Assembly (NCBI GenBank): GCA_029834535.1
Contig: JAQMWT010000022.1
Coordinates: forward strand, 30,137-94,136
From: Chrysophaeum taylorii
Taxonomy: Eukaryota; Sar; Pelagophyceae; Pelagomonadales; Pelagomonadaceae
Length of the DNA stretch: 64,000 bases
Direction: 5' to 3'
Positions within the stretch are counted from its first letter, which is position 1. The number at the start of each line of letters is the position of its first letter. Shown piece by piece: positions 4,626-55,523 of this stretch. Under the pieces are notes generated by a model. That model did not search any database. It had not been told where the DNA came from and saw only the letters and a program-made list of their open reading frames with translations. The translations under genes and the position numbers were made by a program.

Positions 4626-4699
4626 GGGCTCGATGCTTCCTTACCCCAGAACCCTGCCTTGTGTGGTGAAATGGTCTTGTCTGAGGGTGGATCATGATT

Positions 4700-23524: not shown

Positions 23525-25389
23525 ATGGCATGGCGGATCGTGTTGGTCGCCGGCACCGCCTTGGCGGAGGTGTACACGCCGACACCGCAGCCCGTCTCGT
23601 ACGCACCGACGAGGCTGCCCACCACGGCGGCCATCTGTTGTTTCTACGCGGAGTCGACGCCAGAGCTTAATTTGTTTGTCTTGGTTCGAAAACTACTACT
23701 TTCTCAGGTCGGGTGACCCCTGCACCGACTGCGCGGAGGAGAACCTCCACAGAAGCGGCTACTGTGTGAAGCAGCGTTGAAATCGAATTGATTAAGGCGA
23801 ACTGAGGCGGCGCAGGCGCGGAGAGCGAGGAGAATTGCCTCGATTGTAGCGCGGCGGCAACCTTCTGCGTGCCGACGCCCCGCCCCACGGCATCGCCGAC
23901 GCCGCGGCCCTCGTCGTCGCCGACGACGCCATCACCGACGACGCTGCCGCCGACGCCGCGACCGAGTCGACCGCCGACGCCGCGCCCGACGCCGTTTCCG
24001 ACGCGACAACCATCGCCGTCTCCGACTAAAATCCCGACCAGCGGAAACGTGTGCTGTTTTTACTCGGACACGTCTGATCCTTGCGACTGCGAGCCAGGCA
24101 ATAGCGCCAGGACCGGATTTTGTGTGATGAGCGAGGAAAATTGCCTCGCGTGCAGCCCGACGGCCGCCTATTGCGTCCCGACGCCGCACCCCACGCCATC
24201 GCCAACGCTGCGCCCTTCGCTATCACCGACAACCCTATCACCCACGACGCCGCAACCGACCCCGCGACCCACTCGATCACCGACGCTGCGGCCCACGCAG
24301 TTTCCGACGGTTTCGCCGTATCCGACGATAACTCCAACCACGACGAGCCTTTGTTGCTTCTACTGGGAGTCCTCCGACCCGTGCGACTGCGAGCCCTTGA
24401 ACAGCGCCAAGAGCGGATTCTGCGTGCTGAGCGAGGAAAATTGCCTGATTTGCAGCCCGACAGCCGCCTTCTGCGCAGCGCCGCCGACGCCAATGCTAAC
24501 GATGCCACCAACTCGCCGGCCTACCGCGAAAACGACGACGACGACGACGACGACGACCTGCGCGGACTCGAGTGACTGGTACAAGGCATCCGAGCCTGAG
24601 AAGGACTGCTCGTGGGTCTCCTCGTTTACCGAGGCGCGCTGCGTTGTCAAGGGCGAGGACGAGACTTTTGCGTATCAGTCTTGCCCCTCGAGTTGCTCGA
24701 CCTGCGAAACCGAATGCGAGGGCGACGACCCAGAATTTTATGTCACCGATCCGAGCAAGGACTGCACCTGGGTTGGTCAAGCCAGGACAGTCCGCTGCAA
24801 GAAGGAGGGAACTACTGGCTACGCGTACGCGCAGTGCAAGCACGCGTGTGGTCTCTGCGCCTACGAAGAGTGCACCGACGACGACGATGCCTGGGTGCGC
24901 CTCCACCTCACACCTCATCATCATTGCTTGCGCGCCCGCAGCAAATGCCCGGCGATCCCTCCAAAGACTGCGACTGGGTCGGTGACTTTCGCCAGAATAG
25001 ATGCGTCAAGGTGGGCGCGGACGGAACGTACGCCTACGAAAGCTGGTGAGGACACTCCCTCCTCCTTCGTTGAACGAGACTCCCCGCAGCCGCCACTCCT
25101 GCAAGTCTTGCGCCGAAACGCTGACGGGCTCGTGCAGCGACAGCACCTCGTGGTTCAAGAAGGACGACCCTTCGAAGGACTGTGCGTGGAACCAACTATA
25201 CCCAAAGCGCCGCGTTTGTTGATCGTGCGTGCGAGTAGGCGACTGGGTTGGGAATTTGCTGCCTACACGCTGCGCCGTCAAGGGCGACGATGATACTTGG
25301 GCCTTCGAAGGTTCGTTGTGTTCTCTGATGTGGCACCGTGCTGAACTCGTTATGACACAGCGTGCCCCTTTACTTGCGACGTGTGCTGA
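23525..25389 (+). CDS. Secreted modular cysteine-rich protein without GH45 domain (cluster gene A)
   Basis: Seven exons: 23525-23652, 23708-23775, 23816-24894, 24942-25045, 25090-25181, 25239-25310 and 25361-25389 (523 residues), with six introns of 40-57 nt. After a signal peptide (MAWRIVLVAGTALAE) come three eight-cysteine 'CCFY' modules (CCFY...DPC.DC...GFC..SEENCL.C...FC) joined by long Pro/Thr linkers (PTPRP units). The C-terminal block has four six-cysteine repeats with the pattern C..D...W[YF]....P.KDC.WV......RC..[KG]......[YF]..C..[SA]C..C, an ShKT-like spacing. The end is CPFTCDVC. No catalytic domain is present. The modular layout suggests a secreted polysaccharide- or wall-binding protein. 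The last repeats are almost identical in DNA to those of gene B, indicating recent duplication or conversion. Confidence 0.8.
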
Positions 25390-25645
25390 AAATAAGCACG
25401 GACTGTATTATTATTAGAGGCGGTGCGGCAACGTGTCAGACGTCGTCGTCTCGGGCTGTGGTGACCAGTGGTAGTGATTTCGACACGACGACGTCCTGCG
25501 CCGCAGAAGAGCTCGCGTCTCTGGGCCTAGGGACGGAGGCAAGATAGCAAGATATTATACATGATATTCGATTTTGCCACGACAAAAAAATTTCGATTTC
25601 ATGCTGACGCGATGAAGCCAGAATCGTTCCAGGACATCTGAGAAG

Positions 25646-27997
25646 ATGATGATGATGACATTGTGGGTTGCGCTCACCGGTCACGCCATGGCCGACGACT
25701 GGATCACGGGCACATACACGACAGGTACTCTCACTTTCAAAGTGCTCTAAGTTGTCAGACCGACGGTGAGTTCTGACACCAGGATACTGGGATTGTTGCA
25801 AGCCGTCGTGCGCTTGGAGCGGCAAGGGGAACGTCGATACGCCCGTGCGAAGCTGCGAGGCGGAGACGGGGAACGTGCTGAGCAACCCGAATGTCGCGAG
25901 CGTCTGCGACGGCGGCACCTCGGCGAGCTGCGCCGATAACCAGCCTTTCACGATCAACGACGAGTTGTCGATGGGGTTCGCCGCCGCCGCGGTGGGAGGG
26001 GTTAGTGGGCTTAATGGCGATGAGAATTGCGGCATGTGCTACGAGCTCGTTTGGACAGACGAGGAGTTTGCCTACGGTGGAGGCGCGCACCCCAACATCG
26101 TGGGGAAGCGCCACGTCATCCAAGTGACCAACATTGGCTACGACGTTTCTGGCAGTCATTCCTTCGACCTCCAGATCCCAGGTGCGGGCCAGGGCATCTT
26201 CGACACCGGGTGCGAGATCCAGTTTCCCGACTTGGAGAGCGAAGACTTCGACTGCGGCAACAACTACGGCGGTTGTAGCGATGTTTCGGGCTGCGCTGAC
26301 CTCCCCGTCGATCTCCGAGCCGGCTGCGAGTGGCGCTTCGACAGTAGCGTGTACGGGTGGAAGACTGACAACGGCAAGTCAGACAACCCTTTCGTGCGTT
26401 TTCGCCGCGTAAAATGCCCGTCCGAGCTGGTTGCCATCACCGGCACGACGCCCAACGACGACGACGACTACCCCGTGATCGCGTACGTCACGAGCACGGA
26501 CGCCGGTTCCTCGTCCTCGCCGACGCCGCGGCCTGCGTCCTCGCCGACGCCGCGGCCTGCGTCCTCGCCGACGCCGCGGCCCGTCTCGACGCCAGCCACT
26601 TCGAACGTATGTTGCTTTTACTTGGCGTTCGTAGCATCGCGATTCCGAGCTTTCTTCTTGTTTCAAAGTGCAATTGCTCGCGCGAAAGTTCGACCGCAGG
26701 TCGGGCGGCGATCCGTGCACCGACTGCGGGCCAAACGCCGACAGGAGCGGCTATTGCGCAGAGCAGCGTTGAATCGTCCCAGATCGCGAGTGCTTGAACC
26801 GAGTCGGGGCAGGCGCGGAGAGCGAAGAAAATTGTCTCGGATGTAGTTCGGCAGCTATTTTCTGCGGGCTTGGGTCTACGGCATCATCTGCCCCGGCGCC
26901 AACGCCGCGCGCTGTGTCACCACCAACGCCAAAACCTATTGGGTCGCAGCCGCCGAGACAAACGTCCCCGACGCCGCGCCCGGCGTCGACGCCCGCCGGC
27001 GCATCGAACCTGTGTTGTTTCTATTCAGCGTCGGGTGACGCTTGCAACGACTGTGGCAGTGGCGACAGGAGCGGAGGATATTGCAGCCAGAGCGAAGAAA
27101 ATTGTCTGGCCTGCAACCCCGCGGCCACTTTTTGCGCGTCGTCGACGACCTGCGCGGACTCGAGTGACTGGTATAAGGCCTCCGAGCCTGAGAAGGACTG
27201 CTCGTGGGTCTCCTCGTTTACCGAGGCGCGCTGCGTCGTCAAGGGCGAGGACGAGACTTTTGCGTATCAGTCTTGCCCCTCGAGTTGCTCGACGTGCGAA
27301 ACCGAATGCGAGGGCGACGACCCCGAATTTTATGTCGCCGATCCGAGCAAGGGCTGTACCTGGGTTGGTCAAGCCAGAACAGTCCGCTGCAAAAAGGAGG
27401 GAACTACTGGCTACGCGTACGCGCGGTGCAAGCACGCGTGTGGTCTCTGCACCTACGCAGATTGCACCGACGACGACGACGATGTCTGGGTGCGCCTCCA
27501 CCTTACAACAGCTTATCAATACTTTCGTGGCCTCCGCAGCATATGAACGGCGACCCAGCCAAAAACTGCGATTGGGTCGGCGATTTCCGCCAGAACAGGT
27601 GCGTGAATCAGGGCGAAGACGGCACGTATGCCTACGAAAGCTGGTAAGCGCGCCGCTCCGTTTCACGAAAATCGATAAGAGGCTTAGTCGCCACTCCTGC
27701 AAGTCTTGCGCCGAAACGCTCACGGGCTCGTGCAGCGACAGGACCTCGTGGTACAAGAAAGGCGACCCCGCGAAAGACTGTGCGTCGTCGCCACGCCGAC
27801 GATGCTTTGTTGTTGAAAGTTGACAGACGTATCTGCCTATAGGCGACTGGGTCGGAGGTATGCTGCCTACACGCTGCGTCGTCAAAGGTGACGACGATAG
27901 TTGGGCTTTCGAAGGTACTGCGTTGTGTCCTATGATGAGATTTGGTCACCCCCCTTCTACGCACGCAGCGTGCCCCTTCACTTGCGACGCGTGCTAG
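25646..27997 (+). CDS. Secreted GH45 endoglucanase with cysteine-rich modules (cluster gene B)
   Basis: Eight exons: 25646-25724, 25783-26626, 26700-26767, 26813-27489, 27540-27643, 27688-27779, 27843-27914 and 27969-27997 (654 residues). A signal peptide is followed by a GH45 domain: [12 protein letters not shown] (catalytic base Asp, codon 25791-25793), [46 protein letters not shown] (catalytic acid Asp, codon 26166-26168), LRAGCEWRFD and [19 protein letters not shown]45 enzymes are inverting endo-beta-1,4-glucanases. A linker with three PTPRP units leads to two eight-cysteine CCFY modules, and then four six-cysteine ShKT-like repeats. Both catalytic residues are present, so it should be active, probably on beta-1,4-glucan outside the cell. 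Four ATG codons in a row start the frame; the first is used here. Confidence 0.88.
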
Positions 27998-28289
27998 CTG
28001 GTCGGCACGGATTGACAGAACTCGAGAGTTCTTTCTTAGCAGAGGGCGCTTTCACAGTATGTGATACGCGCAGTCCGGGACTCCTACATAGTATAGGCCT
28101 ACCGCGCACGTAGTCGGGATAAACACCCTCACTACTCGCCGTCTGCCCTCACACACAAAAAAACGAATAGTAGTTTAACGTTTTGCCCCCCCCCGCATAA
28201 AATGTGTCTCTTTGCCGCAAAAAACATGAGAAGAAGAAGAAGAAGAAGAATTTTTTTTCGGAGACAGACAGACCGTTTGGAAGGAACAG

Positions 28290-30593
28290 ATGATGCTATT
28301 GTCGCAGCTGGTGGTCGCGGTCGCCGGCGGCGCCTTGGCGGCGGAGGAGTGGATCACGGGTACCTACACTACGGGTACTCCCTATTCACATCAGACCGCG
28401 CTTGACAGACACCACCACATACTGTAGGGCACTGGAATTGTTGCAAGCCGTCTTGTGCTTGGAGCGGCAGAGGGAGCGTGGACACGCCCGTGCGAAGCTG
28501 CGAGGCGGATACGGGGGACGTCCTGACCGATCCAAATGTCCCGAGTGTCTGCGACGGCGGCACATCGGCGAAATGTGCCGACAACCAGCCCTTCAAGGTA
28601 AGCGAGGAGCTGTCGATGGGTTTCGCGTCCGCTGCCTCGGTTGGCGATGTCGACGGACTTTCCGGCGACGAGAATTGCGGCATGTGTTACGAGCTCGTGT
28701 GGAGCGACGAGGAGAATTTGAGTGCGCGACACGTTATCCAAGTAACGGACGTCTCCGAAGCCGTCGCCGGCTCGTTCGACCTCTTTATCCCGGGAGCGGG
28801 CCGGGGCCTCGGGTGCGAGATCCAGTATCCCGACTACGAGATCGAGGACTTCGATTGCAATAAATCCGGCGGTGGGTGTGACGACATCTCGAGCTGCGCC
28901 GGCCTGCCCGCCGAGCTCTTTCCGGGCTGCGCGTGGCGATTCGACGCGTTCGGGCGGACGACCGACGAGTCCGCGAACGTGCGCTTTCGTCGTGTCAAAT
29001 GCCCGTCCGAGCTGGTTGCCATCACCGGTGCGACGCCCAGCGACGACGACGACTACCCAGAGATCGAGTACGGCACGCAGCGCGCCTTGACAACCGACAC
29101 GAACCTGTGCTGTTTCTATTGGGAGTCTTCGGACCCGTGCGCCGATTGCCAGGCCAGCAACAGCGACACGACCGGGTACTGCGCGGAGCAGTGTTGAAAC
29201 ACGACGCGTCCTGGGACGGTACCTTGTTTACGATTTCGGCGCAGGTTCGCAGAGCGAGGAGAACTGTCTCACTTGCGCCCCGGAAGGCACGTTCTGCACG
29301 CCAACGCATCGCCCGACGCAACGCCCGACGCCCTATCCCACGCCGTCTCCAACGCCGAACCCAACACCATCACCGACCCCGCACCCGACGCCGGCGCCGA
29401 CGCCGCGTCCCACGCATCCGCCGACGCGGTTTCCAACGCCATCGCCGACGACGCATCCCACGCCATTTCCGACGCACGCGCCCACCACCGCGAACGTTTG
29501 TTGCTTCTACTGGGAAGAATCGACCAACCCGTGCTTCGACTGCGATCCCAGCAGCAGCGCCAGGAACGGCTTTTGCGCCACGCCGCGTCCCGATCAGTCA
29601 TTTCGCCTTGACGCGCGCTTTGTTTTTGGCACAGGCGCCGAGAGCGAGGAGAACTGCCTCGTTTGCAGCCCGACCGCTGCTTTCTGCGGGACACCGACCT
29701 CGTCGTCGACGACAACACCCCCGAGTCCTCGACCAACTTCGAGCAGTCAAGCAAAATCCCCGACGACGACTTGCGCAGACTCGAGCGACTGGTACAAGGC
29801 ATCCGAACCTCAGAAGGATTGCGCGTGGGTTTCCTCGTTTTCCGAGGCGCGCTGCGTCGTCAAGGGCGAGGACCAGAGCTTCGCATACAGTAGCTGCCCC
29901 GCGAGCTGTTCAACCTGCGAGACCGAGTGCGAGGGCGACGACGCCAACTTTTACGTCACTGATCCGAGCAAAGATTGTACCTGGGTCGGCCACGCCAGAA
30001 CAGTTCGCTGCAAGAAGACCGGCACGACGGGCTATGCCTACGCCCAGTGCAAGCACGCGTGCGGTCTCTGCTACTACGCGGATTGCACCGACGACGACGA
30101 CGACTGGGTGGGCCTTAAAATTCACTCGTCGCCATCATCACGTTGCGCGCCGCAGCAAATGCCGGGCGACCCCTCCAGGGACTGCGACTGGGTTGGCGAC
30201 TTCCGCCAGAACAGATGCGTAAAGGTTGGCGCGGACGGAACGTATGCCTACGAAAGCTGGTGAGTCGAAGACTCCGACTTTGTGCGTGACTTTCTTTCGC
30301 CTCAGCCGCCACTCCTGCAAGTCCTGCGCGCAAACGCTCGCGGGGTCGTGCAGCGACGACGCCTCGTGGTACAAAAAGGGTGACCCCGCGAAGGACTGTA
30401 TGCCAATGTCCCGAGTCAGCATTGCCGACCGTCCGCACGCAGGCGACTGGGTTGGGAATTTGCTTCCTACGCGCTGCGTCGTGAAGGGCGAAGACGATAC
30501 CTGGGCTTTTGAAGGTTCGTTGTCCCCTCAAATAAAGATGCGCGCTCATCTTCGTGCCGTACAGCTTGCCCCTTTACTTGCGACGTGTGCTGA
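28290..30593 (+). CDS. GH45-like protein with catalytic Asp replaced by Asn (cluster gene C)
   Basis: Eight exons: 28290-28374, 28428-29192, 29245-29586, 29635-30107, 30156-30259, 30306-30397, 30443-30514 and 30565-30593 (653 residues). Signal peptide, GH45-like domain, two CCFY modules separated by a long PTP-rich linker, and four six-cysteine repeats. The GH45 start reads [11 protein letters not shown] instead of [11 protein letters not shown]: the Tyr and the catalytic base Asp (HiCel45A Asp10 position) are both changed, the latter to Asn (codon 28436-28438). The second catalytic Asp remains ([10 protein letters not shown]). The domain is also shorter, losing part of the loop that reads EEFAYGGGAHPNIVGK in gene B. 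Hydrolysis is expected to be lost or very weak while cysteines and fold are kept, so a binding role is plausible. Intact exons argue against a pseudogene. Confidence 0.85.
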
Positions 30594-31606
30594 AGTCGCA
30601 CCCTTCCTCTGATGGTAAGGTTCACTTCTTCTTGTGAGTGACATAGCTGTTTGGCGCCTTGAAAAATCGACGAGGGTGTCATCAATATGGGGGACTTATT
30701 ACCTTGGTAAGCTGGCGGTGCTGGTTTGAGTTGGTCTAAAACAAACACACATGGGTAGGGGATCTGTCTGTCTTGAGCGAGTTGCGTCCTCTTTGAGCTC
30801 ACGCTCCGGGGAGAAAGGGTCAGGGTGGGAGGGTCCTTGCATTAAAGACCGACCACGTGTGACAAACACCGGTCGAGACTGCCTGGAGAGGGGTGGTTTG
30901 CGCGGCACAATGGACTCGGGCTCGATCGAATATTCGCAGACCGGCCTCGACACCGGGCTATATCAAGCCCCGGGTCCACTCTCTCTCCTGGGACAGGCAC
31001 ATTCCCACGGCTTTTTGCTTGAGCCTACCACTATGTACGGACAAGTTGCGCCGCCGCCAGGATGGGGAAATGGACCACGGATTGACTTTCTCTCTTCGTG
31101 GAAGGTAGCGTCGTCACTTGGTCACATCATGTGCTCGGACTTTTAAACTGACAATACGGATATTCTCCTTCGAGACTCACCATATGGCGTGTGGTCCACC
31201 GTCCGGTACTGCAGCAGCAATAGATTATGCGCCCCGCGGTCACGCACATCGTGCACTGCCAAACCGGCACTTCCGGAGGCTGTTGGTGCGATCATGATAG
31301 CACACAGTTGGTACGCCATCTTTTTGACCTGGCATCGACCATGAGCTGTGGACGGCATCGCATCCTAATGTCGCGGAGCACATTCAAATAGTTCTACGAC
31401 GTCACCGAGCGCGCGTGCAGTATTCAGACTCGTCGCTCGCAGGACGAACGAGATTTTCAAATGCGGAACTCCTGAGAGAGAATCAAAAATCGGATATGCA
31501 TGCAACTTTATCAGATACTTCATATTGCATCTCCCAATCATAGTGCCTTACCAAGGTTGTCAACACAATCGCCTACGATGCTTTTCACGCACAGTGCGCA
31601 CGCGCG

Positions 31607-31900
31607 ATGTGCCGCGTTACACGTCGCCAGACCTGGAAACATCAAATCAAGTTTTCAAGACTCCTTCAGCGCCTTGGCCTGGTGAGTATCAATACCTACA
31701 TCTTTCGCCGACCACTCCGCTGGGCAGGCCATGTGGCCCGCATACCCTGGAACCGCCTCCCTCGGAAAATGCTCTCCTCCTGGTGCGCCTCAACAAACGC
31801 CTCCGCGGGTCCCCACAGTTCACATACTGGCGGGGTCTCAGCATGGCACTCCGCAAATTCTACGTACGAACGAAGAGGCGGCACTCCCTCGTTCAAGACC
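31607..31900 (+). mobile_element. LINE 3' coding fragment
   Basis: One plus-strand frame reads RRPLRWAGHVARIPWNRLPRKMLSSW, of which LRWAGHVAR and NRLPRK are the conserved tail found at the end of many LINE reverse-transcriptase ORFs. The residues before it (SINTYIFRR) match the tail of the minus-strand LINE at 4.7-4.9 kb (SVDTYISRR), so the two probably belong to the same family. No RT core is present here. Confidence 0.65.
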
Positions 31901-33099
31901 GTGTCAACAGAAGACAGATATCATCTCGCCCTCAATCCTCTTTTCTATCGATCAATGATTCGTGAGGTTAGCAAAATTATCGTTTGTGGGAAGTGACAGC
32001 CGCGTTTGCGTGAGGGTAAAGCACGCTGGGCCGCTACATGATCTTGATGTCAGTTCCTTCGGTTGTGCGAGCCCGAGATAGGCGAGTCAAAATTGCAGTG
32101 TGAAAAAGAGTTTCCCAACGAGAAACTGGACAAATACGTTGGTTCTCGAGAGGGCCCGCAGCCTCTCTACGAGTCTTCAGAGGCTAAACCAAGAACCAAT
32201 GGTCCATCGCAAGAAGACATTCGATCCTCCATTCTGGCTCGATGAGCCCGGAGTTGCGTGCCAAAATGAAAATACGACACTCTGTGTTGTTCTCGCGACA
32301 TGCTCGCCCGGAATAATTTGCGGCGGCCTGTTTAGGACGTATGGCATTCTCCTGCTGCGACCATCTCCTAGCGTCATCTTCTCGTTTTACTTCACGGTTT
32401 TCTCTCTCTCTGCTTCATTTCTTCTTCTCTCCTCCTCCGTCATTTTGTTCCTGCTTCTGCTTCTTTCTTCGCCCTTCTTCTCCTGCCTGTTCAGTAAAAT
32501 TGTCCTCTATATTTCTCTTTAATTTTTCTTACTTCCGTCCTAGCTCTCCTGGCACCGCTTCTCTCTCATTTTTCTCCATTATCAAATTTTTTTTTGCTCT
32601 CGAGTGCTCTCTTTGCGCATTCTTGATTTCTCTGCACGGTCCTCTCATTCTCTTTTCTTTCACTTCCTCCATAAACTCCTTCTTGGGCCTGGGAGTTGCT
32701 TATTAAGTAATACACTAAGAGACCCCAGCCCAACGCACATGGGGCGTAGGCGAATAATCCAGCGCCGTGGCGCGCGGGATAAGAGTCACGGGCGTTCAGA
32801 CGGAGTTGCTAACAAAAAAAAATAAAAATACAACTAGATGGAAACATGAGAGGCGCAGAGGTCACCCGAACTGACGAGCATGGACAAAGCCGAGGGCACA
32901 AGCCGTCTTGACACGGGCCGCAGGACAACAAAAACGCGTTGTTGTTCGCCGCATGGTTCGTTTGGCATTCAGGTATGAAGATGTATCATCGAACAAGCGC
33001 ATTTTGCGTAGGCTAATCACAATGCGCAGGATCAGAATCACAGGGAAAGAGACGGGGGGCGCAGAACAAAGGGGCGTTGGGGGAGATTAAATTTTGACG

Positions 33100-33262
33100 C
33101 CTGTCGCCATGCGGAGACCGCGATTTGTGCCTGACAATCATCTCCTCGTTGGAACGTTTGCTCCTGCGCCCCACGGCTATCACCCGTCCCACTGCGAAAC
33201 TTCCCGGCTTCCAACCGGCCCGCCCGGGAGGCTAAGAGTGCCAACCTACGCCAGGAGGACGG
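33100..33262 (+). repeat. Dispersed repeat family, partial copy 2
   Basis: Matches the second half of the repeat at 1571-1860: the ACCGCGAT.TG..TGACAA stretch, CCGTCCCACTGCGAA, CCAACCGGCCCGCCCGGGAG and CCAACCTACGCC occur in the same order with small differences. Confidence 0.65.
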
Positions 33263-33546
33263 ATGCCCTCTCACACGGCGCAGCTTCCACCAAGGCACCG
33301 TTTTAGACCATCGAAAGAGGAAAAAGAAAGGCCCCGCGTCGTTATCCGACGTAACGTCAACACGACCGCACCAAGATTTTCCATCGACCGTTAATACGAA
33401 TCAAGGCCCGAGGGTCGAGACTAATAATAAGTAGTCTGATGATATGATGATGATGATGATGACTTGAGGAAGGAAGCGAGGAAACTGCGGGGAACATCCA
33501 CCTCGCGTTTCTTTCCTCAGAGAAGAAGCAGTCTACGAGAACGAGA

Positions 33547-35422
33547 ATGGTGTCGTGGCGGATTGCGCTCGCGATGGCCGGTCGCGCGTTGGCCGACGAG
33601 TGGATCACGGGCACTTATACCACGGGTACAACGACGCCAAATTGTCATCCTTGCAAGGCGCGTGACCATGTGCTTCTTTCTCTTCAGGATACTGGGATTG
33701 TTGCAAGCCGTCGTGTGCTTGGAGCGGCAAGGGGGACGTCGATGCGCCCGTGCGAAGCTGCGAGGCGGAGACGGGAAACGTGCTGAGCGACCCCGACGTC
33801 GCGAGCGTCTGCGATGGAGGTACGTCGGCGAGCTGCGTCGACAACCAGCCCTTCACGATCAACGACGAGCTGACGATGGGGTTCGCGGCGGCCGCGGTCG
33901 GCGGTTCTAGCGGGCTCTCCGGCGACGAGAATTGCGGCATGTGTTACGAGCTCGTGTGGACCGACGAGGAGTTTGACTACGGCGGCGGCGCGCACCCCGA
34001 CATCGTGGGGAAGCGGCACGTCGTCCAAGTTACGAACATCGGGTTCGACGTGACGGGCAGCCACTCGTTCGACCTCCAGATCCCGAGCGCGGGCCAGGGC
34101 CTGTTCGACACCGGGTGCGAGATCCAGTTTCCCGACTATAAAAGCAAACATTTCGACTGCGGCAACAACTACGGCGGCTGCGACGATATTTCGGGGTGCG
34201 AAGATCTCCCGGACGACCTCCGAGCCGGCTGCGAGTGGCGCTTCGACGGTAGCGTTTATGGGTGGAAAACAGAAAACGGCAAGTCGGACAACCCTTACGT
34301 GCGGTTCCGCCGCGTCAAGTGCCCATCCGAGCTTGTTGCCATTACTGGCACGACACCCAACGACGACGACGATTACCCCGAGATCGAGTACGTCACTTTT
34401 ACGCCCGCGCCGACGCTCGGTTACAACCCGTCGCCGCAGCCGACGACCAACGGTGTCTGCTGTTTCTACATCGAAGGCGGCGACGCGTGCGAAGACTGTT
34501 CGCCCGAGAACGGCATACGAGGCGGGTTCTGCATGGAGAGCGAGGAGAACTGTTTGTTTTGCAGCGCGACCGCGACGTATTGCGCGCCGACCGACTTGGA
34601 CGATTGCCCGGACGAAGCCGAGTGGTACAAGGAGGGCGATCAAACAAAAAACTGCTCGTGGGTGTCCGTACTGTCCACAAAACGCTGCAGCGTCAAGGGC
34701 GCGGACGGGAGGTTCGCGTACGAAGGGTGTCGCGGGAGCTGTCAGACGTGCGACAAAGGGTGCGAGGGGGACGACGCGGACTTCTACGTCGGCGATCCGA
34801 GCAAGGACTGCGATTGGGTCGGCAGAGCTAGCACGGTCCGCTGTAAGAAGGAAGGCTCCTCGGGATTTGCATATTCGCGGTGCAAATACGCCTGCGGCCT
34901 CTGCAACTACGAGAACTGCGACGACGACGAGGATTGGGTACGTGTTATTTTTTGAAGACGCGATCGCTCACCACCACCGCAGCAAATGCCCGGCGAACCC
35001 TCCAAAGACTGCGACTGGGTTGGCGACTTCCGCCAGAACAGATGCGTTAAAGTGGGCGACGACGGTTCTTTCGCTTTCGAGAGTTGGTGCGTTCTGTTTT
35101 CTTTCGACGAATCAAAGAAATAAATTTACCCCGCAGCCGCCACTCGTGCCACTCGTGTACGCGAATCATCACAAAAGCATGCAGCGACAGCACTTCGTGG
35201 TACAAGAGAGACGAACCTGAAAAAGGCTGTGAGATGCGTACAAGGCAAAAAGAGAAAATTTTTTTTTCAGGCGACTGGGTCGGAGGTTTCGCGCCCTCGC
35301 GTTGTGCCGTCAGAGGCGAAGACGATAGGTGGGCCTTCGAAGGTTCGTCTCGTCTTTCTGTGCGATAACCACTTTTTTTCTCCCGCGTAGCGTGCCCCGT
35401 TTCCTGCAGCACGTGCTCATAA
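33547..35422 (+). CDS. Secreted GH45 endoglucanase with one CCFY module (cluster gene D)
   Basis: Six exons: 33547-33625, 33688-34937, 34983-35086, 35137-35228, 35271-35342 and 35391-35422 (542 residues). Signal peptide (MVSWRIALAMAGRALADEW), then a GH45 domain with [12 protein letters not shown] (base Asp, codon 33696-33698), [40 protein letters not shown] (acid Asp) and [12 protein letters not shown]. One CCFY module follows a short Pro linker, without the introns that interrupt this module in genes A-C. Four six-cysteine repeats end the protein (CPVSCSTCS). Both catalytic residues are present, so it is predicted active. The 62-nt first intron differs from that of gene F at only two positions, so D and F share a recent origin or have exchanged sequence. 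Confidence 0.88.
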
Positions 35423-36079
35423 TCCTCTCTCCACGATGTGGTGGTGCTTCTTTTGGTGCACGTTTCGTTTTCTTAACCACGAACGACTTCTTGTAAAAAA
35501 AGTGCGGGGGGTGGAATAGGCTTCCTTCTACTTAATTTCAATGCGCGACAGACACTGCGCATTTCGCCGACGACGACGACGTTCGAATGACGGAAGAGCG
35601 CGGGAGCTCGCTCGTCCTAGCGCATTTTCACGCAATCGGAAGGGGCTAGGTATTATTGCCATCGTCGAAGGGACCTTCGTGTCGTTAGCCACAAATGTTG
35701 TAAGAAGGACTATCGTCGGTAGACTTGACACTACTCTTCTTCTTCTTCTTGTTGTTGTTGTTGTTGTTGCGAGTGAATAGATAATATTTTGTGAATGAAT
35801 GCGACACAAGGGAATTGATTGTTAACGGTTCATTCAGGGAGAAAAATAGGCGTCTCGAACCCCTACTAGCACACCATCTTCACTTTCATGCCGTTTGCCA
35901 CAAACGCAAGGAGGACGAACTATCGTTAAAGGTAGAAGAGTTTGACACTCTTCTTCTTCTTCATCTTTCTTTGCGCAAAAAAGAAAGAAGGAATAAATGA
36001 ATGCCACAAGGGCATTGATTTATTATCACCGGGTCATCAGTCCTGTTCCGAGAAAAAGTCGTCTAGGTAGGAGGTGACG
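35423..36079. repeat. Diverged ~190 bp direct duplication upstream of gene E
   Basis: Two similar units lie in tandem, about 35686-35855 and 35886-36065. Each has a GCCACAAA.G.. start, an AGGA..A.CTATCGT stretch, GACTTGACACT/GTTTGACACT with a CTTCTT tract, then GAATGAATGC.ACA.GGG.ATTGATT and a GAGAAAAA(T/G)...CGTC end. The first carries a TTCTTCTTG/TTG microsatellite. The duplication lies in the probable promoter region of gene E. Confidence 0.6.
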
Positions 36080-37284
36080 ATGAGGTGGCTGCTTTTGCTG
36101 GGCGTCGTGGCGGACGATGTGGTGACGGTAAATCTTCGAAGGCATCACGAACCGACGGCGCAACCCGTGTATGAACCGACGCCGAAACCCACTCGTGACG
36201 ACCGGCTCTGCTGCTTTTACTGGGTAACGGAAGATCCGTCACTGGATTAATTAATCTCGATAACGCTCACATAGGAGGACCGCGAAGATCCGTGTGTCGA
36301 CTGTTTGGAGGACAACGGCAACAGGGGAGGGTTTTGCACGGACAGCGAGGCGAACTGCGTCTATTGCAGCCCCTCGGCAGCGTACTGCAAGCCGGTGTCG
36401 GAGACGGCGACGATCTTGACTTGCCCGAACGACGAAAGCTGGTACAAGAAAGACGAAAAGGACAAGGACTGCGCGTGGGTCTCTGGGCGTGCGCCGTCGC
36501 GCTGCCTCGTCAAGGGCAAGTTTCGCTTGTCGTCGCCTCGAACGTGTCGCAGGCGAAGACGACGTTTACGCTTACGAAGCGTGTCCCGGGAGCTGTGACA
36601 CCTGCGACTGGAACGATTGCTTGGGCGACGACACTTCATTCTTCGTCAACACCCCGAGCAAGGATTGTTCCTGGGTCGCCAAAGCCAGGAAAATTCGTTG
36701 CAGAAAGTCGGGCTCGACGGGTTACGCGTTCGCGCGGTGCAAGCACGCGTGCGGCCTCTGCACTTTCAGCGACTGCACCGACGAGGACCAATGGGTACGC
36801 CACGGCATTTTTCCTTTCATCATCTCTGCCCTAGCACATGCTCGACGATACGACAAAGAACTGCAACTGGGCCGGCGAATACCGCCAAAATAGATGCGTC
36901 AGGAAGGGCGCCGACGGCGAGTACGCGTTTGATGCCTGGTGCAGCCAACTTCCGACCATTTGTGACTGACTGACTGAGTGACTCCCCCCGCAGCCGAAAT
37001 TCTTGCCAGGCCTGTGCCCAGACAATCTACGGTAACTGCAGCGACAGTACTGACTGGCACAAGGTGGACGAAGTCGACAAGGACTGTGAGTCCGCGCGAT
37101 CCTCGTCATCTTTCAACCCACGCGTGCTTAGGTCGTTGGGTAGGGGAGCAGGTGCCTGCGCGCTGCGCCGTCAAGGGTCACGACGATACGTGGGCTTTCC
37201 AATGTGCGTTTTGCTTGATGTTGCAGTTTTTTCACCTCCGTACTATCCGTCGCAGCGTGCCCCGTAACGTGCGAAGCGTGCTAA
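36080..37284 (+). CDS. Short secreted cysteine-rich protein without GH45 domain (cluster gene E)
   Basis: Seven exons: 36080-36223, 36275-36515, 36553-36794, 36835-36938, 36994-37085, 37132-37203 and 37256-37284 (307 residues). A leader (MRWLLLLGVVADD), a short Pro-rich segment (EPTAQPVYEPTPKP), one eight-cysteine CCFY module and four six-cysteine ShKT-like repeats make up the protein. No GH45 domain is present. The second intron (36516-36552, 37 nt) begins with GCAAGT, a classic GC-AG donor; using it restores the KGEDDVYAYEACPGSC reading expected from the paralogues. The last exons have exactly the same lengths as in the other cluster genes. It is the minimal member of the family, possibly a binding or structural protein for the same substrate. 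Confidence 0.78.
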
Positions 37285-38519
37285 ACCACATCGCCGGCGC
37301 GGTGAGCCTATCCAGCCTCCCACATACCTCGTTCTACCACGCTCAAGGAGGTTCCTTAAGTCTGGTGATAAAATGTCAGCCTTCGTGGCGACCTCGAGGG
37401 AACCTGCTGCTGCTGCTGCTGCTGCTGCGATGTCAGGATGAGTATAAAGCAGCTCTCAACACCCCATAAATTTTACTTACTAAATGAAGTGACTCGGAAA
37501 AAAAAACCTCCGTTTTTTGGTGAAAAAAACCAACAGACTGGGCTTCGGAGGAGCTTCTTATAAGGAGCGTATCATCTCTGCTTCCGGCACAAACTCGTCA
37601 TGACCAAAGGCAACACCTTGCTGAACGACCTGTTTGTCCTCCTACGCATGAATCGCGACGTTCCCGCCCGGGTCTGGTCCAAGTCTCAAGCCCACAGCGA
37701 CTACCGTGGGACCGGAGTCCTTGGGCCCCTTGGTCCCCATCTCTCTCTCCTTCTTTCTTTCCCTGTCGCGAAAAACGTGAATGGCCGCCACACAACCCAT
37801 TCTTCTTAACTCGCCTCACACCTTGCCAGACACCCTTAGCACGCTGTTTTCCTGGCGTCTTGTCTCCCGCCTCTCCTTTATAGCAGTGGCCTTTCGAAAA
37901 CGTTGTGATCTTGAGCTTGAGCTTGTCTTCTAGCGGCGGACAAGCCGCTCCTTCAAGTTGCTCCTGGACTCGAAAATTTTATTAGACCAACAATGATTTG
38001 GGAAAACAGAATCAATCCTAGCGCTCCCCGAGCTTCATCCAGATGTTCAAGGAGCGCATTGACAAGGCGGAATGAGTGGCCCAAGGGCGAGGCCACCACG
38101 CCTCGCAAGGTCGCGTCGAGGATAATAGATCGTACGATTTTGGCGACCTCAAGCGCGAACATACCTCGTTACGGGGTGCGGAGCAGCGGCCTGCACGCAT
38201 ACCTCGTGCGACTCGACTACAAGGAAGGAACCAAGCTCAACTCAAGAGGATGGATCAGAGCGCGCAAGCGCTGGGCTCCTCGGCCACCAGAACAAGCCAC
38301 CTCTCGCCGTGGAGCGTCCTTTGCCCGCCAAACTCAGACTCTGTACGGTACGCAAGTAGACAAGTGTCAGCATGACGTGGCAATAATAACATGCTGATAA
38401 ACATTTATTTGCCACAAAAGTTGGGGGTTGAGAACAATTTTTTGCTAGTAGGAATGATGAAGAACGTGTGCGTGGCGTGATTTCTCACAACAGGTACACA
38501 GCGCGGAGGCTTGTTCTCG
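37285..38519. other. Intergenic between cluster genes E and F
   Basis: Contains a (CTG)n tract at 37404-37429. Open frames at 37600-37809 (plus), 37953-38162 (minus) and 37993-38397 (plus) have no recognised domain and mixed codon usage. They may be transposon debris. Confidence 0.4.
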
Positions 38520-40387
38520 ATGTGGCTCGCGCTCGTGCTGGCCGGTCGCGCGTTGGCCGACGAGTGGATCACGGGCACTTATACCACGGGTACAACGACG
38601 CCAAATTATCCTCCTTGCAAGGCGCGTGACCATGTGCTTCTTTCTCTTCAGGATACTGGGATTGTTGCAAGCCGTCGTGTGCTTGGAGTGGCAAGGGGGA
38701 CGTCGATACGCCCGTGCGAAGCTGCGAGGCGGAGACGGGAAACGTGCTGAGCGACCCGAACGTCGCGAGCGTCTGCGATGGAGGTACGTCGGCGAGCTGC
38801 GCCGACAACCAACCCTTCACGATCAACGACGAGCTGACGATGGGGTTCGCTGCCGCTGCCGTTGGCGGTTCTAGCGGGCTCGCCGGCGACGAGAATTGTG
38901 GAATGTGTTACGAGCTCGTGTGGACCGACGAGGAGTTTGACTACGGTGGCGGCGCGCACCCCAACATCGTGGGGAAGCGGCACGTCGTCCAAGTTACGAA
39001 CATCGGGTTCGACGTCACGGGCTCCCACTCGTTCGACCTCCAGATCCCGAGCGCGGGCCAGGGTCTGTTCGATACCGGGTGCGAGATCCAGTTTCCCGAC
39101 TACGAGAGCGAAGACTTCGACTGCGGCAACAACTACGGCGGTTGTAACGATATTTCGGGCTGCGCCGATCTCCCAGACGACCTCCGAGCCGGCTGCGAGT
39201 GGCGATTCGACACGAGCGTGTATGGGTGGAAGACCGACAACGGCAAGTCAGACAACCCTTACGTGCGGTTTCGTCGTGTCAAATGCCCGTCCGAGCTGGT
39301 TGCCATCAGCGGCACGACGCCCGACGACGACGACGGCTACCCCGAGATCGAGTACGTCGCGAGCCTCGGCAACCCCAGCCCGGCGCCGACGCCTCGTCCT
39401 GTCTCGTCGTCCGCGACCTCGAACTTGTGTTGTTTTTATTCGGCGTCGGGCGACGCTTGCAACGACTGCGAGCCCGGCGACGGCGACACGACCGGATATT
39501 GTAGCCTGAGCGAAGAAAATTGCTATTCGTGCGGCCAAACGGCCACCTTCTGCTCGTCGACCTGCGCAGACTCGAGCGACTGGTATAAGGCATCCGAGCC
39601 CGAGAAGGGTTGCGCGTGGGTATCTTCGTTTACCGAGGCACGCTGCGTCGTCAAGGGCGACGACGGGACTTTCGCTTACGAATCGTGCCCGGTGAGCTGT
39701 TCGACCTGCCGCGCCACCTGCGAGGGGGACGACGCCGACTTCTACGTCACTGATCCGAGCAAAGACTGCACCTGGGTCGGCCATGCCAGGACAGTCCGCT
39801 GCAAGAAGGCGGGCACGACGGGCTTCGCGTATGCCCAGTGCAAGCACGCGTGCGGTCTCTGCTACTACGCGGATTGCGCCGACGACGACGACGCCTGGGT
39901 GCGCCTTCCAACCCTGGTCGTCGTCCTGACTTTAACGCCCGCAGCAAATGCCGGGGGACCCCTCCAGGAACTGCGACTGGGTCGGCGACTTCCGTCAGAA
40001 CAGATGTGTCAAGACGGGCGAGGACGGGACGTTTGCCTACGACGGCTGGTGCGCGTCGTACTGTCGCGCACCCTCTCACGCCTCCTCGCAGCCGCCACTC
40101 CTGCAAGGCTTGCGCGGCAACATTGACGGGCTCGTGCAGCGACAGCACCTCGTGGTACAAGAAAGACGACCCGGCGAAGGACTGTAGGTGCCCTCCGTCG
40201 TTTCCACCGTTCGAGAGGTTGATCCTATTAGGCGACTGGGTTGGAAAGTTGCTGCCTACGCGCTGCGTCGTGAGAGGCGAGGACACTACGTGGGCCTTCG
40301 AAGGTATTATGCATTTGTTTTGATGATGAGGATCCGTAATGGTCTCCACTCCGCGCAGCATGCCCCTTCACTTGCAATGTTTGCTAA
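38520..40387 (+). CDS. Secreted GH45 endoglucanase with one CCFY module (cluster gene F)
   Basis: Six exons: 38520-38589, 38652-39898, 39945-40048, 40092-40183, 40232-40303 and 40359-40387 (537 residues). Signal peptide MWLALVLAGRALADEW, GH45 domain with [12 protein letters not shown] (base Asp, codon 38660-38662) and SHSFDLQIPSAGQGLFDTGC (acid Asp), a short Pro linker, one intronless CCFY module, and four six-cysteine repeats ending CPFTCNVC. Predicted active endo-beta-1,4-glucanase. The GH45 half is nearly identical to gene D at DNA level, while the C-terminal repeats are closer to genes A-C ([17 protein letters not shown]), which suggests a mosaic formed by recombination inside the cluster. 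It is the last gene of the array; the opposite-strand WD40 gene follows. Confidence 0.88.
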
Positions 40388-51461: not shown

Positions 51462-52586
51462 ATGGGTCCCAACGAGATGCCCGTGCGGCGCGTGCGGGGC
51501 TGGACGCTCGTGAAGAAGATCGGGAGCGGGAGCTTTGGTGAAATTTACCAGGCGAGCAGCTGTGGAGGAGGAGGGGAGCGGTCGGATGACGTGGCCATAA
51601 AGCTCGAGGCGCTGAAGACGAGGCACCCCCAGCTTGATTACGAAGCTCAGGTGTTGAGCGCGTTGCGGGGGAACACGGGGGTCCCCACCGTGTACTGGTG
51701 GGGCACGGAAGGCGCGTACACGGCGATGGTGATCGACCTCCTGGGCCCGTCGCTGGAAGATTTGTTCAACAGGTGCGGACGACGGTTCACTTTGAAAACG
51801 GTGCTGGGCCTCGCGCGGCAACTGATAAACCGCCTCGAGATGGTGCACGGCATGAGCTACGTTCATCGGGACGTCAAGCCCGACAATTTTTTAATCGGCC
51901 GAGGGTCTCGCGCGAGGATCGTCCACGTGATCGACTTTGGCTTGGCCAAAAAGTACCGCGATCCGCACTCCCACCAGCACATTCCTTACCGCGAAGACAA
52001 AAATCTTACCGGTACGGCGCGGTACGCGTCGGTCAGCACCCACCTCGGCATCGAACCTAGCCGTCGCGACGACCTCGAAAGTCTTGGCTACGTCCTCGTC
52101 TATCTCCTCCGCGGATCCCTGCCGTGGCAGGGCCTCAAGGCCGACACCAAAGCCAAAAAGTACGAGTGCGTCTTGCTCAAAAAAATGGAAACGGCCTTCT
52201 CCGACCTCTGCTACGGCTTCCCGCCCGAGTTCTGCCGCTACTTCGACTGCGTCCGCAACTTGCGCTTCGACCAGAAACCTGATTACGATGCCCTCAGGGC
52301 TCTCTTTCGAGACGTCCAGCGTCGGGAGAGCTACGACGCCGACGACGACACCTTCGACTGGCACTTTCTCCCCGACAAGCCTATCCCCTGGGTCGCCGTT
52401 CCCCCCGACGAACCCAAGACCAACAACAACGCATTTTCGCAGCGCGAAGACCACCTCGCCGACCCACCCGCCGACCCACCACGAAGGTCCCCCCGCAAAA
52501 GAGAAACCGTTACCCGCTACGTCGACGCCCCCAATACCAACGCCACCACCAAAAGGACAAAGCTCTACAAATCCCCCGCCGCCTAG
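51462..52586 (+). CDS. CK1: Casein kinase 1 family protein kinase
   Basis: A 374-residue, single-exon Ser/Thr kinase. Glycine loop [10 protein letters not shown], catalytic Lys in [20 protein letters not shown] (catalytic loop), [10 protein letters not shown], and the CK1-specific [33 protein letters not shown] with LPWQGLKA identify casein kinase 1. The domain spans about residues 13-295. The tail is basic and Pro-rich (PRRSPRKRE), with possible nuclear-localisation character. CK1 enzymes phosphorylate primed substrates in Wnt-like, circadian, DNA repair and trafficking pathways; the specific role here is unknown. The 3' flank carries short tandem repeats. Confidence 0.95.
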
Positions 52587-54147
52587 CCCCCCATCTTCGG
52601 ACCAGACGGGACACAAAACAAACATCAAAGACAGAACCGACACCCCCCGACTCACTCGGGGGAACGCGACGCAACGCAACGCAACGCAACTCTACTCAAC
52701 TCAACTCACATAGGGTTCATTTCGGCCCCTTTTCCTTCCCTGGACCCCCCCTCCCCCGCTGCTATGCTGCTCTCTTTGATATAAATTATCTATCATACAA
52801 CTGTGGTTTACCCCCGCCTCGACCGCCTCTCCTCTCCTCTACTCTACTCTACTCTACTCCTGGGGGGCTTCATTCGACGCCCCTCCAGTCTGTGTTATAT
52901 CAATGCCATATATTTTAGGTTGGTTTAGGTTAGGTTGGGATATGTTAGGCAAGCCAACCTGAACTAAACTTAACTTAACCGAACCAGGGCAGGCTAGGCA
53001 GCGTCTCCTCTGTGGCGGCGACATGTAGCTAATCATCACCACCGCCTGGGGCTTGTTCCCGCGTGTTGGTTTGCGGCGCATCGTGCCTTTTCGCCGCTCT
53101 TCCCCAAAAAGAGCCACCAAATATTAGTGCTTGGTTGCCGACTTGCGAAACGAAGTGCGGCGCGAGGACCTCCTTTGGCGAACAAGGCAAAGGGATCTCG
53201 GGCGTTAAGAGAGGCTGCTACGAGGGGCTAGGGAGAGTGGCTAGAGTCCAGAGAGCTACACTATTATGTGTGCGACACTGGAACATTTTCACACCTGTCT
53301 CTACACAAGGGTTTTCTCTCCGTAATACGGCTTTCCCTCTTTCTTCCTTTTCCTTACCCTTCCGCCCTTTCATCTTTCATGACTATGAAGAACCCAGTCT
53401 GAAGCTCTTGTCTGAAGCTCTTTTCCAACATGGAGTAGGCCTCCAGGTGCGTACCGTCAGGTACGGAGTTGTCTGTTTAATTAACAGAGACTTTTCGTTC
53501 CTCGTTGTCAGTGTAAGGGCTTCTATGGGGCCTAATGTCCTTAAGGAGTTAGGACTTAAAGCCCTACCTTGTGTAGTAGCATGTGGCAATCGGAATGGTC
53601 TGTACACGCCTAAGACTGCACGCAGTCTCTACCATGAACCCGGAGAGAGTCAAATCTCTCCAGGTTATGGGCCCAGATACGTAGGTGTGTCAGCCCAACT
53701 GTGTTGTACGTCTAAATCGAATGATCAATTTGCGCCTGATCACGAGTACAATGCGACAATGTGTTTGGCGGTGGTCTACTGTACATATTTGTTGTGTGAC
53801 GGTATGTGCCCACCAGTTAAATTGGTTTGTGACCGAGTTGGGTCGGTCACTGGTCACATGCACTCGCATAACTAATAAAATTAAAATTTTTCCTATACAA
53901 GCCGCGGAAACTTGTACGGGTTTTTACTTCCATTCCCCAACAAAAGACTGACTGCTCGAGAACTAATCCATTCTTCAGTCTCAAGTCACCCTGTTTTAAA
54001 TAGCATGTTGATTTGTTTGGTCTTGTCAATAAGCCCACGTTTAAAAATCGCGTACTGTACATAGAACCCGCACTTGAGAAGCCCTTCATTCTTATGTGTC
54101 GAATCTGTCTATCAATCCTCTAACCTATCCCTTAATAGGCCACAATC
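52587..54147. other. AT-richer flank of the retroelement with microsatellites
   Basis: (CTACT)n at 52829-52859, CAACG/CAACT repeats at 52670-52700, and a TTAGGTTGG/TTAGG-rich stretch at 52914-52950. A 270-codon frame at 53063-53875 has no recognised domain and untypical composition. This may include the 5' LTR and leader of the copia element, but I could not find a matching downstream LTR inside the window. Confidence 0.4.
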
Positions 54148-55436
54148 ATGTCAAAACAAAAAACAATATCTACCACGGATATCTACAAACAAGAACAAAT
54201 CCTCGTTGATAAAATTAACGCAGGATTGCGCTTCCAATATAATTCAACCAAGGTGAGCTTGCAAATTGAAGCGCTTCGCAGGCATATGACAAGTCCATAT
54301 GTGGACGCGTTATTCTGCTTTGATTCATATGAAGCTTACACCCGGAATGCTCCGGAATATAATCAACTTCTTGAACAAGAAGTTGATATTATCTTCGCTC
54401 AATGGAAAGCTGAACAAATTAATGATTTAAACTTACATGATGAAGATGCCCTGCCCGAACATTTAAAGACTTGGCACGTCAACTCTTCCCAACAACTAAC
54501 AGTTGATGCCCGTAATAATCTTGAACGACTTTACTACCAAGAGTCGTACAACCTTGTCCGTCCTGAATTAAATGAGGATGTTAAACATGTCCTCACTTTA
54601 TTAGATACCCGATTTCCTAAATCAATTGTGTATGATTCATCTTTAACTAACATGTCCTTTACGGGTCTCTCTAATGCCGGTTGGATCAAACACTGCGAAG
54701 CTTGTGCTGGTTTCTTGCAAAGCAACTAAATAATGATGAAGCATCAATCCAATTTGATAACTCCATAATCACTCTTAAAGCTCACGAGGAGATCTACCGT
54801 CTATATGCTAATCCCTCGGATCACGAGCGCTATTCTCAATCTTTATTGGAATGGTGTAAACTCTACAAGACACGCTCTAGTAACAACTCGAATCACGATC
54901 CCGAATTGTTAAAGCTAGTTGATCCTAACGACGTTCGTCCACTATTGGAATTCTTGTTAAAGATATATAATGAGACAAAGTTTTCTTCTAACCGACGCTT
55001 GGATAAACCCGCTTCCTGGATCCCTTACATCCCTGGTACTACCGCTACCAAGCCACCTAAGGTATTATTGATGGATACTATTCATCAATCCCACGACTCT
55101 CTAAACAGAGCTTACTCGTTGTTAGCCACTGTAGCTGGACAGTCTGGCTTCAACGCTCGTAAGCTTCGTAATGCAAAAGATAAAGCATCGACAATCTCAC
55201 CCCGTGACACGTCGCACTATCGTTCACCCTCAAATTATAACGTCAAAGGTACCAGCTTCGATCGTCCTGTCTACTCATCTTCGTCTAACCGTAATGCACG
55301 CTCTAATATGTCTCTTATGGACCGGGCTACTTATCAAGTTGATCGTCTTCGCCACCTGTTTGGTAAATTGCAGGAAGCGCTGTGGCGGTCCGCCATCCAT
55401 GCACTTTCATCCCTCGCCTCTACCCCAACTGTGTGA
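54148..55436 (+). pseudogene. Copia gag-like coding region
   Basis: Starts MSKQKTISTTDIYKQEQ and continues in two frames joined near 54700 (a single shift turns GFLQSN into FLAKQLNNDEAS). Gag identity is inferred from position and composition only. It stops just before the dispersed-repeat insertion. Coding-like sequence resumes after it (55551-55886, MVQGEMKSLLSTLW). Confidence 0.55.
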
Positions 55437-55443
55437 TTTTTGC

Positions 55444-55523
55444 TCTGTGATCCTGGACCGGCTACTACCGGCCCAGCCTGGCTCCCATGCCCGAGAGAGG
55501 TCCGAAGTTAGTTAGTTAGTTAG
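55444..55523 (-). repeat. Dispersed repeat family, short inverted copy inside copia gag
   Basis: Reverse complement of the first ~80 bp of the repeat at 1571: it contains GCCTGGCTCCCATGC followed by a GTTAGTTAGTTAG end. The gag reading frame stops immediately before it. Confidence 0.75.

Follow-up and report, generated by a model that had tools for sequence, protein, structure and literature searches.

We report a tandem cluster of six genes, g1 to g6, in the colony-forming marine pelagophyte alga Chrysophaeum taylorii, four of which carry a glycoside hydrolase family 45 (GH45) domain and all of which carry a shared eight-cysteine module that we call CC8. The cluster spans positions 23525–40387, plus strand, of the stretch of DNA analysed (the window: 64,000 nucleotides, contig C22, 30137–94136). 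We favor the explanation that modular, secreted proteins active on beta-1,4-glucan have expanded in tandem within this lineage, with the roles proposed below; secretion, activity, CC8 binding, substrate and role are all predicted from sequence, and we put the probability of this reading at about 0.6. Algae are usually treated as makers rather than breakers of cellulose, and the cluster hints that algae possess a so far overlooked means of breaking or loosening the glucans of cell walls. The genome that we searched comprises 70.8 Mb in 697 contigs; the published C. taylorii NIES-1699 genome has 71 Mb in 702 contigs (PMC10366177).

Architecture of the cluster

The six same-strand genes keep the limits given to them by a first-pass annotation of the window, and their models stay open across the introns: none has an internal stop, and joining the exons by sequence gives a complete protein in each case. 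Introns are 40–73 bases long with GT-AG ends, the sole exception being a 37-base GC-AG intron in g5. Regular-expression parsing recovers the two repeated elements that the first pass had noticed, namely ten CC8 modules (3, 2, 2, 1, 1 and 1 in g1 to g6) and 24 six-cysteine repeats, four at the C terminus of every gene. Pro/Thr linkers, which had been seen in most of the proteins, are long in g1–g3 (26–67 residues, 31–82% Pro/Thr/Ser) and short in g4–g6 (11–38 residues, 42–45%; in g2, g4 and g6 the measurement excludes the stretch between the last CC8 and the repeats, which the pattern absorbs). Of the signal peptides that had been claimed, a short hydrophobic N-terminal start is present in all six proteins, as judged by hydropathy only, and we infer that all six are secreted. 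Coordinates are collected in Table 1.

The six-cysteine repeats are not specific to the cluster but a general feature of this genome, since a two-repeat query returned 70 matches across many contigs. They have no Pfam match above cut-off in the cluster pieces; ShK was considered and did not match there either, in contrast to one relative (P0069) that does match Pfam ShK.

Table 1. Genes of the cluster and selected domains (positions in the window)
Feature	Position	Strand	Description
g1	23525..25389	+	523 aa, 7 exons; three CC8 modules, Pro/Thr linkers, four six-Cys repeats; secreted-type, no catalytic domain; main exon without Pfam match
g2	25649..27997	+	653 aa, 8 exons; GH45 with both catalytic Asp, two CC8, four six-Cys repeats
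GH45 domain of g2	25785..26444	+	base Asp codon 25791, acid Asp codon 26166
g3	28290..30593	+	653 aa, 8 exons; GH45-like with Asn replacing base Asp, two CC8, four six-Cys repeats
GH45 domain of g3	28430..29029	+	Asn at base (codon 28436), acid Asp retained (codon 28778), several short deletions
g4	33547..35422	+	542 aa, 6 exons; GH45 with both catalytic Asp, one CC8, four six-Cys repeats
g5	36080..37284	+	307 aa, 7 exons including GC-AG intron 36516–36552; one CC8, four six-Cys repeats, no catalytic domain
g6	38520..40387	+	537 aa, 6 exons; GH45 with both catalytic Asp, one CC8, four six-Cys repeats; exon 2 model matches subfamily-A GH45 structures
CC8 example, second module of g1	24046..24180	+	single exon, two flanking residues either side
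CC8 of g6	39422..39559	+	single exon, two flanking residues either side

GH45 family and subfamily

The assignment of four genes to GH45 holds under a hidden Markov model search, in which Pfam PF02015 matches g2, g3, g4 and g6 at 102.6–152.3 bits (cut-off 27; E-values 3.8e-29 to 2.3e-44). In g1 and g5 no piece reaches the cut-off of any Pfam family, and these two genes are not GH45 members. The three signature motifs first read from the cluster fare unequally: YWDCCKPSC, FDLQIPGAG and GCEWRFD are all exact in g2, g4 and g6 read FDLQIPSAG in place of FDLQIPGAG, and g3 has none of the three exactly, with HWNCC at the base site.

We assign the cluster GH45 to the subfamily-A type, because of the sequence matches of g6 and of the template modeling (TM) scores of its predicted structure. 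Searched against Protein Data Bank (PDB) sequences, g6 gives ten distinct matches at E 0.01 or better, all to fungal-type and springtail enzymes. The model of g6 exon 2 has 10-residue confidence means of 70–97 across residues 1–230 (the GH45 domain), 52–72 across the CC8 stretch and below 50 at 237–255 and 303–415. Against ten GH45 chains its target-normalised TM score is 0.86–0.89, as compared to only 0.37–0.40 for the mussel and snail-type (subfamily B) enzymes; no subfamily C structure appears in the g6 sequence or structure match listings against the PDB. The subfamily-A enzymes that share its fold include Humicola insolens EGV (2ENG/4ENG), Melanocarpus Cel45A (1OA7) and those of Neurospora (6MVI) and a springtail (5H4U), to which the aligned model is 39–42% identical. 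The cluster also shares with subfamily A the YWDCCKPSC and FDLxIP-type motifs, and g2, g4 and g6 have both catalytic aspartates. It differs from these enzymes in having CC8 modules and six-cysteine repeats instead of a CBM1 (PF00734 had no match to E 1 in the nine translated pieces of the six genes), and in that g3 is without the base Asp. For g3 we also considered an expansin, in which a CBM63-type C-terminal domain stands behind the barrel; only GH45 matched in the g3 pieces, and there was no C-terminal expansin domain.

Expansion and origin of the GH45 genes

Genome-wide search with PF02015 gave 12 matches, three of which are exons of one gene, leaving 10 GH45 loci: the four in the cluster, two each on contigs C222 and C314, and one each on C218 and C443. 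On C222 the two genes (L032, L033) lie in a tandemly duplicated segment, 4.1 kb of which is 99.4% identical between the copies, and these copies are 97% identical to the C314:161k copy; a database protein of C. taylorii with the UniRef name cellulase (P0001, CTAYLR_009548) is a variant of the C222 gene. The cluster copies are older than the C222 copies, given their synonymous divergence (dS) over GH45 of 0.30–0.73 by the NG86 method. The second C314 gene (L035, C314:788500–794500, ORF (open reading frame) 2296–3606, minus strand) is a divergent GH45 with SWDCC and FNLLLP motifs, in which the base Asp is kept, the acid position is Asn, and no CC8 was found.

A phylogeny, one of the checks proposed at first pass, was built from 78 rows hand-picked from 197 complete domains: 8 from C. 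taylorii (without C222b and C443), 28 marine and 42 springtail-query matches. The latter two kinds come from the best 120 of 186 marine matches and the best 120 of 908 matches to a springtail query, so intermediates may be missing. The four cluster domains group together (support 99/93) within a group of seven of the eight C. taylorii rows (99/87), the eighth, C314:791k, lying outside on a very long branch. In a 14-row group that includes C. taylorii, Aureococcus sequences are the only named outsiders (100/98), and a branch of 1.08 (100/100) parts all 36 marine rows from the other 42, which are fungal, animal, myxobacterial or unnamed. Together with the 10 loci, these groupings support the lineage-specific GH45 expansion that the first-pass annotation had proposed.

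Among the best 120 of the 186 marine matches, the nearest relatives are from C. taylorii itself, Aureococcus and other marine protists, and these 120 are 49–74% identical over the aligned part. They are at most 432 aa long (the search was limited to 444 aa or fewer), as compared to 537–653 aa for the cluster proteins. GH45s of Aureococcus, Prorocentrum, Cymbomonas and a transcript named ‘Gam...’ fall in the same tree group as the cluster (100/100). Bacterial relatives, in 59 loci, are only 28–41% identical, with record titles naming Deltaproteobacteria, Myxococcales, Polyangiaceae, Fibrobacter and kin, Chitinispirillaceae, Proteobacteria and one Planctomycetota, and of 13 pattern matches to GH45 in viral contigs none was confirmed. 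This disfavors recent transfer and argues for an old marine-protist GH45 family that has expanded in C. taylorii. A scenario in which the cluster was recently acquired by horizontal transfer from a fungus or bacterium and then amplified, a version of the seeding by transfer suggested at first pass, could draw on the patchy distribution of GH45 and on relatives in myxobacteria and Fibrobacter, but we consider it very improbable given the marine-protist relatives, the two splits well supported among the sampled rows, the introns of the cluster genes and the lack of a confirmed viral relative; the data leave room for an ancient transfer.

Catalytic residues and g3

In the Humicola enzyme HiEGV, Asp10 is the base and Asp121 the proton donor (PMC5829257). 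Both positions are Asp in g2, g4 and g6, and in g3 the base is Asn with the acid Asp retained. Among the marine relatives (119 entered of the 120 listed, omitting P0001; 69 complete enough and 50 dropped), the base is Asp in 68/69 and Asn in one (P0074, from Prorocentrum cordatum), and the acid is Asp in 69/69. Eight C. taylorii GH45 domains have the base Asp in 7/8 (g3 being the exception) and the acid Asp in 7/8 (Asn in C314:791k). In the springtail-query set (best 120 of 908), the base is Asp in 116 and unread in 4, and the acid is Asp in 111, Glu, Ser, Ala or Asn in 7 and unread in 2; acid substitutions are therefore not unique to C. taylorii. The variants YWASCK/YWSSCR in P0030, P0036, P0084 and P0099 had looked like further lost bases. 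After trimming to the GH45 domain, P0074 is the sole kept marine domain without the base Asp, and we dropped the idea of frequent base loss among marine GH45s. A short g3 query scores higher against 4ENG (29.8 bits) than against its 210-residue twin 2ENG (27.8 bits), which would be accounted for if, as we take it, 4ENG is the D10N form.

The GH45 domain of g3 has also evolved faster. Its three pairings with the other cluster domains have nonsynonymous to synonymous rate ratios (dN/dS) of 0.28–0.36, about threefold above the 0.09–0.11 among g2, g4 and g6, yet still below 1 (NG86); by the YN00 method the values are 0.12–0.23 with g3 and 0.06–0.08 without it. The g3 branch in the GH45 tree measures 0.47, as compared to 0.034–0.055 for the other cluster members. 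In the six-cysteine region, g3 shows a dN/dS of 0.09–0.19 against g1, g2, g4 and g6, and 0.35 against the divergent g5, whose ratios with the remaining genes are also high (0.27–0.34). The rate change in g3 thus shows in GH45 and is absent from the repeats, these being the two regions compared.

We conclude that g3 is probably neither a hydrolase nor a dead gene but a pseudoenzyme, or a protein that binds or loosens glucan. The lost base, the short deletions and the fast-evolving domain would also be expected of a decaying pseudogene or a sequencing artefact, but we regard this as unlikely: all eight exons are open, splice sites are GT-AG throughout, the GH45 dN/dS remains below 1, the six-cysteine part is conserved, and a Prorocentrum GH45 carries the same Asn. 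As a putative pseudoenzyme, g3 presents the classic GH45 active site with a natural exchange of Asp for Asn, next to three sister genes in which the site is apparently intact. Its Asn had not been noticed at first pass; the further CC8-bearing proteins and the rest of the cellulase set (below) lie beyond the window.

The CC8 module

The CC8 pattern consists of CC, two more Cys, an aromatic-Cys pair, a Ser-rich stretch with Cys, a further Cys and a second aromatic-Cys pair. With a profile of the ten window modules we searched 240 database proteins together with 16 C. taylorii ORFs (256 in all; several ORFs had been picked for earlier CC8 signals), finding 14 domains in 13/256 proteins in the first round and 28 domains in 18/256 after iteration, with none in 512 reversed or shuffled copies in either round; C531, C495, P0002, P0003 and P0053 were recovered only by the iterated profile. 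No Pfam family scored above cut-off on the module in the CC8-bearing proteins scanned, and NCBIfam likewise gave no match above cut-off. The CC8 region of the C222-type protein, searched against a large protein database, found P0001 only (1/546 candidates at E 0.01 or better), in an exact-word search of low sensitivity for this module.

CC8 is present on 9/10 of the C. taylorii GH45 loci, C314:791k being the exception, and on 9 of the best 120 of 186 marine matches (P0001, P0002, P0003, P0005, P0006, P0013, P0053, P0061 and P0101), a feature that these database GH45s have in common with the cluster. It also occurs on a 1009-aa ORF of contig C288 (L038, C288:8000–16000, ORF 3505–6531, plus strand) that combines GH6 and GH5 domains and looks membrane-anchored at its N terminus, as well as on a C531 ORF of 591 aa (L125, 430–2202, plus strand) with a lytic polysaccharide monooxygenase (LPMO) domain (LPMO_10, E 6.3e-11; AoAA13 similarity, E 3.8e-26). 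Further carriers are g1, g5 and a partial g5 copy on C322, two apparent tandem genes of C523 that also have six-cysteine repeats, and a 471-aa ORF of C495 that has modules only, with a weaker, partial fit. The C288 ORF places two cellulase domains in one algal protein. In the C531 protein the LPMO_10 domain starts at His-Gly, and two CC8-like modules come after it, one clear and the other weak.

Three architectures (GH45; GH6 with GH5; LPMO_10) thus join CC8 to carbohydrate-active domains that are unrelated to one another. As such attachment typically identifies a carbohydrate-binding module (CBM), CC8 is best read as a candidate for a new module, and possibly a new family, of that type. Several points weigh against this reading, or against that of the cluster as secreted glucan-active proteins. 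Binding is predicted from association alone, and the signal peptide calls come from hydropathy alone. The searches were seeded from GH45-attached modules, which biases the count toward GH45, and the E-values of the iterated profile are not independent, its training set having come from its own matches; the initial scores of C288 and C531 were modest (E 0.074 and 3e-5, with 0.065 for C495). Against PDB sequences CC8 has no credible match (best E 0.88), and its model, of mean pLDDT (predicted local distance difference test) 62, matches no PDB structure. Six other cellulase ORFs (one GH7, two GH6 and three GH5) and one GH45 are without CC8, and CC8 proteins without a known catalytic domain exist (g1, g5, C495 and C523), which could be structural matrix proteins. 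Finally, CC8 need not bind cellulose, since the sole PDB match of the C531 LPMO is AoAA13, of the starch-active type.

Our search of the literature (titles and abstract starts, with few subscription journals) found no description of a pelagophyte GH45 expansion, of its architecture or of CC8, and the main text of the C. taylorii genome paper makes no mention of cellulase, glycoside hydrolase, CAZy or GH45 (PMC10366177). GH45 itself is already known, also in protists (Goniomonas avonlea, PMC6260743).

Carbohydrate-active genes beyond the cluster

Genome-wide profile searches found one match to GH7, 16 to GH5, five to GH6 (at four loci), four to GH3 and none to GH9; the GH5 profile, PF00150, also takes in GH5s that are not cellulases. 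By sequence reading, without a predictor, hydrophobic stretches stand at the C terminus of the C218 GH45 and at the N terminus of three GH5 ORFs and of the GH6-GH5 protein. The cellulose synthase profile PF03552, which matched in 3/14 control genomes, had no match in C. taylorii, and CelA (TIGR03030) had three matches only, far below cut-off, to the same proteins as three of the six PF13632 matches. This lack of a recognised cellulose synthase is suggestive only, because the assembly has a BUSCO value of about 81% (PMC10366177). Three glycosyltransferase family 2 (GT2) proteins, which we take to be of the CslA/C-like subfamily, could make other beta-1,4 backbones. Two GT2 synthase-like proteins (L050 and L051, on C556 and C667) have an N-terminal extension resembling a sulfotransferase P-loop (WPRSTTNSL, WPRSATRSL), with Pfam matching only the GT2 part of L050; they are possibly fused sulfating glycan synthases.

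The set resembles the cellulase secretomes of fungi, in which GH45, GH6, GH7, GH5, GH3 and LPMO co-occur and one small cysteine-rich module recurs across unrelated catalytic domains. It differs in that the fungal module is CBM1 and that of C. taylorii is CC8, in that some of the enzymes look membrane-anchored, and in that the host is a photosynthetic alga. Goniomonas avonlea also has a GH45 in a protist, but as a plastid-lacking cryptomonad for which one GH45 is given (PMC6260743). A secreted GH7 with CBM1 has been reported from the coral symbiont Breviolum (PMC10438907).

Possible roles

We propose that g2, g4 and g6 would act as inverting endo-beta-1,4-glucanases of GH45 subfamily-A type, cutting beta-1,4-glucan internally, that g3, without the catalytic base, would bind or loosen glucan, and that g1 and g5, as module-only proteins, would bind without cutting. 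CC8 would hold the cluster, GH6-GH5 and LPMO proteins on extracellular polysaccharide, the six-cysteine repeats would perhaps anchor them in mucilage, and GH6, GH7, GH5, GH3 and LPMO proteins would finish the breakdown of the glucan. The site of cutting or loosening would be the cell surface or the colony matrix, and some of the GH6, GH7, GH5 and GH3 proteins look membrane-anchored.

Two roles, which take up those suggested at first pass (own wall, attack on other algae, osmotrophy), fit this scheme about equally well. The proteins may trim beta-glucan made by C. taylorii itself, remodelling its wall or mucilage, with g3, g1 and g5 as structural binders, a role that we find credible though short of an even chance. 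In plants, membrane-anchored and secreted endoglucanases trim the wall glucan of their own cells. The own-matrix role is favored by the apparent membrane anchors (C218 GH45, three GH5 ORFs and the GH6-GH5 protein) together with the habit of C. taylorii, which lives in secreted mucilage (PMC10366177), and the CslA/C-like proteins could supply a backbone to be trimmed. The missing cellulose synthase speaks against it, weakly in view of the BUSCO value, and wall trimming would hardly seem to call for several cellulase families and an LPMO as well.

Alternatively, and still more tentatively, the fungus-like set may digest the cellulose of seaweeds, seagrass or dinoflagellate thecae, either for carbon or to overgrow benthic competitors. 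Feeding is favored by the breadth of the enzyme set, with GH45, GH6, GH7, GH5, GH3 and LPMO all in one algal genome that has no recognised cellulose synthase. C. taylorii forms mucilaginous blooms and outcompetes other benthic organisms (PMC10366177), and GH45, GH5 and GH3 proteins with secretion signals in Goniomonas avonlea were read by the authors as pointing to algal prey (PMC6260743). However, C. taylorii is photosynthetic, and apparent membrane anchoring suits work at its own surface equally well.

The favored reading of a secreted, glucan-active expansion could extend beyond C. taylorii: we suggest, as a possibility well short of a firm expectation, that CC8 is a new CBM family marking a so far unrecognised system for glucan degradation in photosynthetic marine protists, in which secreted or membrane-anchored GH45, GH6-GH5 and LPMO proteins, scaffolds (g1, g5) and a dead GH45 (g3) would open cellulose that the algae apparently do not make. 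In C. taylorii, a photosynthetic bloom former, ten GH45 loci stand beside GH6, GH7, GH5, GH3 and LPMO, and one undescribed module links several of them; whether algae of this kind break down foreign walls or rework a matrix of their own thus becomes a question for experiment.

Other features of the window

The start region of g5 (36057–36738) recurs on contig C322 as 683 bases at 99.4% identity, and the remainder of g5 has no DNA match in the 9.5 kb stretch compared. Between g3 and g4, the stretch 31565–31947 recurs on contig C288 (392 aligned bases, 79%) in the manner of a dispersed repeat, which argues that C288 belongs to the same genome as the window. Downstream of the cluster, at 52001–64000, G+C drops from about 0.6 to 0.42–0.53 with a strongly negative GC skew. 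This region, perhaps a mobile element, holds long plus-strand ORFs of 253, 352, 691 and 365 aa, none with a Pfam match at E 0.01.

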